NCBI RefSeq assembly: GCF_023660105.1
Contig: NZ_JAMHGA010000019.1
Coordinates: 1-64,000, forward strand
Direction: 5' to 3'
Length of the DNA stretch: 64,000 bases
Source: Desulfovibrio aminophilus
GTDB taxonomy: Bacteria > Desulfobacterota > Desulfovibrionia > Desulfovibrionales > Desulfovibrionaceae
Position numbers and translations under genes: made by a program. Positions 52,017-54,847 of this stretch are shown piece after piece. The notes beneath the pieces are model-generated. The model had not been told where the DNA came from and ran no database searches. It saw only the letters and a list, made by a program, of their open reading frames with translations. Position 1 is the stretch's first letter, and every line of letters starts with the position of its first letter.

Positions 52017-52826
52017 GTGAGCGCGGAACAGTCCCTGGCCCGCCTGTTGAACGTCATCGACCGGCTTCTCGGCCCCGACGGCTGCCCCTGGGACAGGGAG
52101 CAGACCCCGGAAAGCCTGTGCGACTATGTAATCGAGGAATCCTATGAGCTCATCGAGGCCATCCGCGCGGACCAGCCGGACGACGCCCGCGAGGAGCTGG
52201 GGGACGTGCTCTTCCTGCTGGCCTTCATCGCCGTGCTCTTCGAACGGCGCGGCGACTTCAGCCTGGCGGACGTCATTGAGAACAACGCGGCCAAGATGAT
52301 CCGCCGCCATCCCCACGTGTTCGCCGATGCCTCCTTCGAAAACCAGAAGGAGCTGCTCCAGAACTGGGAACGCATCAAGCGCGAGGAGAAGAACGGGGAC
52401 GACGGCAAACCCGCGCGCGTCTTCGCCTCCCTGCCCAAGGGCCTGCCCCCGCTCCTGCGCGCCTACCGCATCCAGGCCAAGGCCGCCCGCCTGGGCTTCA
52501 CCTGGGAAAAGGACGGACAGGTGGAGGAGCAGCTGCGCTCGGAATGGGAGGAGCTGCGCGAGGCCCAGGCCCTGGGGGACAAGGCCGCCATCGAGGAGGA
52601 GTTCGGCGACTACCTCTTCACCCTGGTGGAATACGGACGACGCATGGGCATCAAGGCCAACGCCGCCCTGGACGCGGCCAACCGCAAGTTCCTGAGGCGT
52701 TTCGAATGCATGGAGGACCTGGCCGAGGACGCGGGCCAGGACGTGCCGTCACTGGACCTCGCGGCCCTGAACGCGCTCTGGGACCGGGCCAAAGCCGGGG
52801 ACGACCCGTCGGGCAAGGCCTCCTGA
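52017..52826 (+). CDS. mazG: Nucleoside triphosphate pyrophosphohydrolase MazG
   Basis: This 269-residue enzyme hydrolyses NTPs to NMPs and may lower (p)ppGpp precursors. The GTG start has AAGGAG. The N-terminal MazG repeat has GCPWDREQTPESLCDYVIEESYELIEAI with the EExxE metal site and ELGDVLFLLAFIAVL. The second repeat has QVEEQLRSEWEELREAQ and IEEEFGDYLFTLVEYGRRMG. Length is normal. Confidence 0.95.
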   Translation: MSAEQSLARLLNVIDRLLGPDGCPWDREQTPESLCDYVIEESYELIEAIRADQPDDAREELGDVLFLLAFIAVLFERRGDFSLADVIENNAAKMIRRHPHVFADASFENQKELLQNWERIKREEKNGDDGKPARVFASLPKGLPPLLRAYRIQAKAARLGFTWEKDGQVEEQLRSEWEELREAQALGDKAAIEEEFGDYLFTLVEYGRRMGIKANAALDAANRKFLRRFECMEDLAEDAGQDVPSLDLAALNALWDRAKAGDDPSGKAS

Positions 52827-52845: not shown

Positions 52846-52873
52846 TAAAGTTCCGAGGGCGAAAGGCCGATAA
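52846..52873 (+). promoter_or_regulatory. Sigma-28 (FliA) promoter
   Basis: TAAAGTTC, a 12-bp spacer, then a perfect GCCGATAA. This matches the flagellar class-3 consensus TAAAGTTT-N11-GCCGATAA with one extra spacer base. It lies 39 bp upstream of the start of the 68-residue gene. Confidence 0.8.
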
Positions 52874-52912
52874 GACGGATGTCTCGTATCAGGCCCAACC
52901 ATCGGAGTCTTC

Positions 52913-53119
52913 ATGGACACCACGGCAACACTCGTTTTCCAGCCCATCCCCCTGGCGGCCCCCCTGCCGTCGGCGGTGGACCGCCCGGATACCCGGCCGG
53001 TGGAAGCCGCCTCGGGCCCGGGAGCCCAGCTCTCCAAACGCGAGGCCTCGGACGGCGAGGACGGTTCCTCCCGCAACCAGGCCGAAGGCAAGGGGCTGCG
53101 GCTGGACCTCACGGTCTGA
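52913..53119 (+). CDS. Small protein of the flagellar (sigma-28) regulon, function unknown
   Basis: This 68-residue protein starts MDTTATLVFQPIPLAAPLP and is Pro/Ala-rich in the first half and charged in the second (QLSKREASDGEDGSSRNQ), ending GKGLRLDLTV. It has no Cys, no signal peptide and no membrane helix. The GGAGTCTTC ribosome site supports the start. The sigma-28 promoter upstream links it to late flagellar or chemotaxis genes. The end slightly resembles FlaG-type small proteins, but I cannot claim homology. Confidence 0.75.
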   Translation: MDTTATLVFQPIPLAAPLPSAVDRPDTRPVEAASGPGAQLSKREASDGEDGSSRNQAEGKGLRLDLTV

Positions 53120-53126
53120 GATCCGC

Positions 53127-53160
53127 CCGCGCCGCCGGGACGCAAGTCCCGACGGCGCGG
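53127..53160. terminator. GC-rich hairpin between small flagellar gene and rubrerythrin
   Basis: The stem CCGCGCCGCCGGGAC pairs with GTCCCGACGGCGCGG (one mismatch), loop GCAA. There is no long T-run on either side. It lies between convergent genes and is likely a weak terminator. Confidence 0.6.
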
Positions 53161-53168
53161 AGGAGTGG

Positions 53169-53663
53169 TCAGTCGATGGCGCGGAACGCCTTGGCGGCGG
53201 CCCCGCAGACCGGACACTTGGCCGGGGCCTCGTTCTCCGCGATGTAGCCGCAGACGGTGCAGATCAGATAACCCACATCTTCCTTGGCCTCCATGTTCTT
53301 CAGCGCCTTGGCGTACAGTTCGGCGTGCACCCGCTCCGCGTCCAGGGCGTAGCGGAAGCTGCGTTCGGCGGCCTTGTTGCCCTCCGCCACGGCGGCCTCG
53401 ATCATGGGCGGATACATGGTCTCGAACTCGTAGGTCTCGCCTCCCACGGCCTCCTTCAGGTTCGCCGCGGTGTTCCCCACGGCGCCCAGGGCGCGAAGGT
53501 GGGCATGGGCGTGGACGGTCTCGGCCTCGGCCGCGGCCCGGAACAGCTTGGCCACCTGGGGATAGCCTTCCTTGTCGGCCTGCTGGGCGAAGGCGAGATA
53601 TTTGCGGTTGGCCTGGGACTCACCGGCGAACGCCTGCTTCAGATTGGAATCGGTCTGTGACAT
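53169..53663 (-). CDS. rbr: Rubrerythrin
   Basis: This is a 164-residue rubrerythrin. The start at 53663 (MSQTDSNLKQAFAGESQANRKYLAFAQQADKEG) has a perfect AGGAGG-type site (TGAAGGAGGCATTC); an upstream in-frame ATG is less likely. The diiron ligands lie in EAETVHAHAHL and DAERVHAELYAK. The C-terminal rubredoxin-like FeS4 domain is ICTVCGYIAENEAPAKCPVCGA. It is a short-form enzyme that detoxifies hydrogen peroxide in anaerobes. An inverted repeat lies 20 bp upstream. Confidence 0.96.
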   Translation of the reverse strand: MSQTDSNLKQAFAGESQANRKYLAFAQQADKEGYPQVAKLFRAAAEAETVHAHAHLRALGAVGNTAANLKEAVGGETYEFETMYPPMIEAAVAEGNKAAERSFRYALDAERVHAELYAKALKNMEAKEDVGYLICTVCGYIAENEAPAKCPVCGAAAKAFRAID

Positions 53664-53683
53664 GAATGCCTCCTTCATTTTGT

Positions 53684-54415: not shown

Positions 54416-54847
54416 TTATTTCGTGTCCTTCCAGTACGACCAGCTCTTTTTCGGATCCTTGGTCATGTTCCCGCAGAACTCCTCGTATTCGCCGACAAGC
54501 ATGGACACGTCCTCGCAGGTATCCATCCTCGTCTTCATCTCGGCCTTGTAGGTGCTCATCTTCAGGGCCGCCAGGCGCACGTCGGAAAAGAAACTCGCCA
54601 GGGCGAGGTTGTAATCCGCGGCCGAACGGTAATTTTCCCGGACCATGGCTTCCGAGCCGAGCAGATCGCTCTTCTCCAGGCATTCCAGGACGATGTACTG
54701 GTAGGCCGCGCACTTGGCGTGCCCATCGGCCAACTCGGCGCGGGCGGCCTCGTCATCGAAGGCCCACGCCGCTCCCGCATTCAGGATCAACAGCGCGGCC
54801 AGCGCGAGAACCAACATCAGACGCGGACGCGAAAAAACGCGTTTCAT
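54416..54847 (-). CDS. Exported hypothetical protein
   Basis: This 143-residue protein has a Sec signal peptide (basic MKRVFSRPR, hydrophobic core, cleavage near GAAWAFDD at about residue 29). The mature domain is predicted helical, with four Cys (AKCAAY, LECLEK, DTCEDV, EEFCGN) that could form two disulfides. There are no domain matches I know. It lies on the same strand 79 nt downstream of the AcrB-like pump gene. Confidence 0.75.
   Translation of the reverse strand: MKRVFSRPRLMLVLALAALLILNAGAAWAFDDEAARAELADGHAKCAAYQYIVLECLEKSDLLGSEAMVRENYRSAADYNLALASFFSDVRLAALKMSTYKAEMKTRMDTCEDVSMLVGEYEEFCGNMTKDPKKSWSYWKDTK

Follow-up and report, generated by a model that had tools for sequence, protein, structure and literature searches.

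The window, by which we mean the whole 64-kb stretch of DNA analysed here, contains a short gene that lies behind a FliA (sigma-28)-type promoter, is conserved at the level of the genus, and ends in a C-terminal signature like that of an unnamed family of small proteins in the Desulfovibrionaceae, as our computational analysis established (Table 1). We call this family FGA, which is our own label for proteins with the pattern FGAxVVxxTLDYMN...YDFQxSVL...GKGxxxNxxV. Our best explanation is that the gene encodes a FliA-controlled late flagellar protein that is related to FGA and docks by its C-terminal peptide, and we put the probability of that whole explanation at about one half. In what follows, G000 is the genome that holds the window, and G001 and G002 are the two other genomes of the same genus that were searched.

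Table 1. Positions of the gene, its promoter and its neighbours within the window.
Feature	Position	Strand	Basis or remark
mazG, upstream neighbour (context)	52017..52826	+	PF03819
-35 element, FliA (sigma-28) type, TAAAGTTC	52846..52853	+	Pattern search; kept in G001 and G002
-10 element, GCCGATAA	52866..52873	+	Pattern search; identical in G001, GCCGATAT in G002
Ribosome site GGAG	52904..52907	+	5 bases 5' of the start codon
68-codon gene, function unknown	52913..53119 (stop codon included)	+	ORF list; purifying selection in frame against G001
Coding sequence for the conserved C-terminal end, GKGLRLDLTV	53087..53116	+	Within the most conserved orthologue block; agrees with the matrix of FGA C-termini
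Hairpin rich in G+C in the convergent intergenic region; probably ends the transcript; no U-run	53123..53163	+	RNA folding
Rubrerythrin gene, convergent neighbour (context)	53169..53678	-	PF02915

The open reading frame begins with an ATG at 52913, ends with a TGA whose last base is 53119, and translates into a 68-residue protein. The orthologue in G001, a genome of the same genus, is 69% identical, of equal length and in the same place, and against it the in-frame dN/dS is 0.26, while the other five readings give 0.46 to 2.9; the differences by codon position 1/2/3 number 16/10/31. Because of this in-frame ratio, and because both promoter elements and the ribosome site are conserved around a spacer that has changed, we conclude that the ORF is a real gene with purifying selection on its frame. 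The ribosome-site block kept in the DNA alignment with G001 is CATCGGAGTCTT. An earlier note on this DNA had described a short gene with a good ribosome site 39 bp behind the promoter, set between the housekeeping genes mazG and rubrerythrin, and this description is accurate: there are exactly 39 bases between the promoter site and the ATG, and profile matches identify both flanking genes.

We obtained no match for the window protein in Pfam (at E values up to 10), NCBIfam or PHROGs, and on the PHROGs result we rejected a phage origin of the gene; a search for tandem repeats gave no lead for it either. The 68 residues include 7 prolines, 9 alanines, 6 glycines and 6 serines. A structure model from the single sequence, which is weak evidence, had a mean pLDDT of 62 and a pTM of 0.18, with no secondary structure reported and no confident fold. 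Because of this composition and the low model scores, the protein would fit a disordered chain with no stable fold. Elsewhere in the window, on the minus strand at 54416-54847, a 143-residue protein has no Pfam match and, by eye, an N-terminal stretch like a signal peptide.

The convergent arrangement of the window gene and the rubrerythrin gene, and a predicted folding of the window transcript that is better than that of shuffles (z -2.4), would suit a transcript that acts as RNA, damping the rubrerythrin gene by convergent or antisense transcription while flagella are built, with the ORF secondary. However, selection acts on the protein frame, the intergenic hairpin, whose inverted repeat is by eye partly kept in G001, could end the transcript before rubrerythrin is reached, and the Rfam scan found no family at a meaningful score (its one match, Mnt IRES, reaches 11.9 bits where the gathering score is 100 and is chance). 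We consider such an RNA role highly unlikely.

The promoter pattern TAAAGTTC-N12-GCCGATAA has a single match in the window, where 100 dinucleotide shuffles give an expectation of 0.00, and this bears out the near-consensus sigma-28 site reported in the earlier note. The -35 counterparts are TAAAGCTC in G001 and TAAAGAAT in G002, and in G002 the locus reads TAAAGAAT...GCCGATAT, then an ATG, then an assembly gap, then the same C-terminus. The site is thus kept in all three genus genomes searched, with constant -35 and -10 elements and a drifting spacer. The E. coli FliA consensus has a spacer one base shorter than that of the window site; the longer spacer is common in the family, occurring in 33 of 74 distinct TAAAGTT...GCCGATAA sites, while 41 of the 74 have the shorter one. 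Since mazG is only a short distance away, one could argue that the promoter likeness is chance and that an ordinary small gene owes its transcript to a different promoter or to read-through out of mazG, but neither the absence of expected matches in shuffles nor the conservation of both elements around a drifting spacer in three genomes agrees with this, and we regard it as very unlikely indeed.

G000 has a FliA gene (TIGR02479 over its cut-off at G000:C38:83214-83864), as do all the genomes tested for one (6/6). The earlier note had placed the window gene away from flagellar clusters, which is right for its housekeeping flanks but not for the contig, where flgM (PF04316) lies 37.6 kb downstream and, from our reading of the translations, csrA and flgL adjoin it. 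A second FlgM-like match, at G000:C28:40795-40893 (L032 1501-1599), scores 24.6 bits, below the cut-off. Because the site is kept in the genus, the FliA gene is present, and sibling sites mostly precede known or plausible flagellar genes, control of the window promoter by FliA is well supported from sequence comparison. We infer that the gene depends on FliA in the cell, and its expression very probably begins along with that of the late flagellar genes. Of the earlier suggestion of a late-flagellar or chemotaxis factor, the first half fits and nothing points to the second.

The sibling sites were sought with a looser pattern, TAAA-N15-17-CCGATA, with the reversed pattern as control. G000 has eight sites against one for the control: one precedes flaG (PF03646) at a spacing equal to that of the window site, one precedes a YggS-type gene with motA and motB behind it (L251 1179-3550, on G000:C11), one precedes a cytidylyltransferase gene whose start is about 200 bases downstream of the site, two precede glycosyltransferase genes (one of them scoring below the Pfam cut-off), and the others are found before a zinc-ribbon gene, an FGA small-protein gene, and the window gene. 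In G001 there are six sites (control 3), four of which match G000 sites by spacer sequence, namely those of the glycosyltransferase, zinc-ribbon, window and flaG genes. The looser pattern gave 7 sites in G002, 12 in G015 and 5 in G022, with a control of 2 in each, and 47 sites against 43 in the A+T-rich G009, where it is therefore uninformative. The stricter TAAAGTT-N12,13-GCCGATAA has 75 sites, 74 of them distinct, in 63 of 285 family genomes, against 5 by our own count for the reversed control; by inspection, the genes 3' of these sites encode flagellins, FlaG, chemoreceptor-like and glycosyltransferase-like proteins, and many small proteins. Among the literature matches listed, going by the starts of their abstracts, none dealt with the FliA regulon of Desulfovibrio or related bacteria, and none concerned the window gene.

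The zinc-ribbon protein itself has 139 residues, a C-terminal CxxC part and no Pfam match, and its FliA-like site is at G000:C12:163371-163397 on the minus strand (L066 ~1501). By eye, look-alikes occur under FliA-like sites in G001, G002, G262, G270 and G301.

Conservation across the Desulfovibrionaceae, whose absence the earlier note took as a ground for refutation, extends to gene and promoter in the three genus genomes, but of the 288 family genomes searched these three alone gave a convincing match to the whole protein, which answers that check half for the gene and half against it. When a profile built from the three orthologues was run on the 288 genomes, six had a match at E 0.01 or better: the three genomes of the genus, at E 3.4e-33 or better, and three weak matches (1.5e-4, 9e-4 and 0.01), two of which have an internal stop codon and none of which reaches the C-terminal residues. 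The best weak match of this search in other genera is on G006:C67 (E 1.5e-4). In an earlier whole-protein search of 59 genomes, G029 matched at E 1.6e-4, and 45 of the 59 matched at E up to 10; we judged the weak whole-protein matches in other genera to be compositional, as the stronger among them are parts of longer frames or do not cover the C-terminus, and some have stop codons. A scan of genome contigs returned one locus, in a Desulfovibrio sp. UBA4079 record. As far as seen, the whole protein is a genus-level gene.

The position behind mazG is shared more widely. We found mazG in 55 of 59 genomes and scanned the 400 bases downstream in 54 of them, leaving out G057, where the contig ends; the mazG match of G006 is interrupted by a stop codon, and there the scanned stretch began 453 bases further on. 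A strong FliA-like site (at least 21 of 25.5 on our own scale) follows mazG in 5 of the 54 genomes (G000, G001, G002, G009 and G015), while G022 and G019 reach 19.5 and the remaining genomes 19 or less. In G009 and G015 an FGA gene stands behind the post-mazG site and encodes a protein unlike the window protein. G022 also has an FGA gene directly after mazG, so that FGA occupies this slot in three other genera, two of them with strong sites; in G025 and G006 an FGA gene is found 1.3 kb and 1.7 kb after mazG, respectively. The five mazG-FGA genomes are spread over several unresolved deep branches of the mazG tree. The FGA family is present in 73 of 119 family genomes. The FGA gene of G000 is at G000:C38:56498-56829 (L069 1501-1832), away from the window gene and under a FliA-like site, and G001 also carries one elsewhere; a search of the family genomes found none in G002. 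The FGA members scanned have no Pfam or NCBIfam match over cut-off, and a search for PDB relatives gave three matches, the best at E 0.1, and no lead. In several genomes the FGA protein has a tandem copy of the FGAxVVxxTLDYMN unit.

The longest block kept in the three orthologues, AEGKGLRLD, is near the C-terminal end, and FGA proteins end in peptides such as GKGTLLNLTV, GKGTMVDMMV and GKGGIADMNI. The G-x-G-x-hydrophobic-x-D/N pattern typical of FGA ends is present in the window protein too. We built a weight matrix from 35 FGA C-termini (36 minus the weak row L231), with the window protein kept out of the training set. The C-terminus of the window protein scores 10.07, just below the 11.2-25.9 of the FGA members, each of which was scored under a matrix including it. 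In a first background 3 of 869 ORFs reach 10.07, and these are the window ORF itself and the FliA-linked L191 and L272; once FliA-linked ORFs, the C-termini of FGA proteins and the orthologue in G001 are removed from the background, 0 of 1088 do. The observed score is reached by 4 of 20000 shuffles of the protein's own letters at length 10, by 328 of 20000 at length 7 and by 13 of 20000 at length 16, and 2 of 20000 random 10-mers reach 10.07, figures that have to be read knowing that the region was picked after being seen and that the score is weaker at lengths other than 10. Among the 48 small FliA-linked ORFs that do not belong to the FGA profile set, 8 score at least 6, against 5 of 1088 in the background, but five of those eight are the window gene and the likely distant FGA members L191, L324, L331 and L338, and without these five the count is 3 of 43. 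Profile-profile alignment (hhalign) of the window family with FGA covers the last 11 columns only (E 0.017, probability 2.7%).

A first C-terminal regular expression, made by eye from the set behind the stricter promoter pattern, was dropped as a general rule in favour of the FGA-only matrix, since in a holdout of other FliA sites 1 of 20 small ORFs matched it, and 29 of 1282 did so in the background. The holdout input was 97 distinct FliA sites with a candidate ORF, among the matches listed, for which reversed-control matches were non-negligible; 68 sites, again among the matches listed, were fetched by region with near-identical repeats skipped by eye, and 30 loci were used. With moderate confidence, the window protein and FGA appear to have a C-terminal signature in common, which is not proof of homology, and a relation between them seems moderately supported.

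The gene could instead be a young, genus-restricted orphan under FliA control, unrelated to FGA; a relic post-mazG FliA promoter would then have come to drive a new ORF, and the resemblance to FGA at the C-terminus would be due to chance or convergence. The restriction of convincing whole-protein relatives to three genomes of one genus, the empty database searches and the low hhalign probability are what such an orphan would lead one to expect. On the other side, none of the 1088 background C-termini scores as high, and FGA genes with FliA-like sites fill the same slot in other genera. We treat an unrelated orphan as a possibility to be kept in mind, though an unlikely one.

In the explanation that we favour, a FliA-controlled late flagellar gene, FliA (sigma-28) RNA polymerase would transcribe the window gene as one of the late class, and the product would be a short protein without a stable fold, most constant in its C-terminal end, EGKGLRLDLTV. 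Because of the promoter, the chromosomal slot directly after mazG and the C-terminal signature, we would group the protein with the FGA set, either as a paralogue that has diverged far or as a protein that replaces FGA in function; we infer that at the mazG slot the two share an ancestor or a function. The set would consist of mostly disordered accessory proteins under sigma-28 control, which the window protein would have joined by divergence or convergence. The C-terminal peptide would most likely bind a conserved flagellar partner, for which the filament, the export gate and an export chaperone are the candidates. In that role the protein would serve filament assembly as a factor that is accessory or exported. 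A wider and more doubtful proposal is that a GKG-x-x-hydrophobic-[DN] peptide serves as a shared docking or export tag, recognised by one partner, on otherwise unlike sigma-28-controlled small proteins of the Desulfovibrionaceae, with the window protein, whose body is wholly unlike the others, as its cleanest example. If this were true, the tag would mark late flagellar proteins, accessory or exported, that have so far not been described as a set. Flagellar regulons outside the enteric bacteria contain many unnamed small proteins, and the window gene together with the widespread FGA family offers a concrete sigma-28-linked set of them in sulfate reducers, with one candidate docking peptide. 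If our explanation is right, flagellum assembly in this group would have an extra layer of accessory or exported factors.

Among known systems, YjfB of Bacillus is SigD-dependent, and the pattern of its C-terminus is similar to that of the window protein. The YjfB_motility family (PF14070) resembles the window protein in being small, linked to sigma-28 and of unknown function. In a published study, YjfB is described as an uncharacterized small protein encoded in a sigma-28 sub-module (PMC11607428). The window protein could accordingly be imagined as a YjfB-type motility protein or as an anti-sigma factor that regulates FliA directly: its size, sigma-28 control, M-D start and short G-rich, hydrophobic-D end recall YjfB, and one protein out of 14 in the FGA set has a marginal match to PF14070 (E 0.07). 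However, a search with PF14070 found nothing in G000, G001 and G002 and exceeded the cut-off in 0 of 39 genomes, and we rejected YjfB membership. FlgM (PF04316) is likewise a small protein of the flagellar regulon, but the true FlgM is the separate gene downstream on the contig, and with this and the empty Pfam search FlgM membership was rejected as well. A YjfB-type or anti-sigma role therefore seems to us quite unlikely. The window protein differs from FGA in lacking the core FGAxVVxxTLDYMN...YDFQxSVL, in being proline-rich and confined to one genus, and in that G000 and G001 keep a separate FGA gene; the two are alike in small size, in a FliA-like site close upstream (in the FGA members inspected), in the slot after mazG in several genera and in the C-terminal GKG-hydrophobic-D/N peptide. 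FlaG (PF03646) has a recognised domain that the window protein does not have, but in the same genome its gene is preceded by a FliA site with the same spacing.
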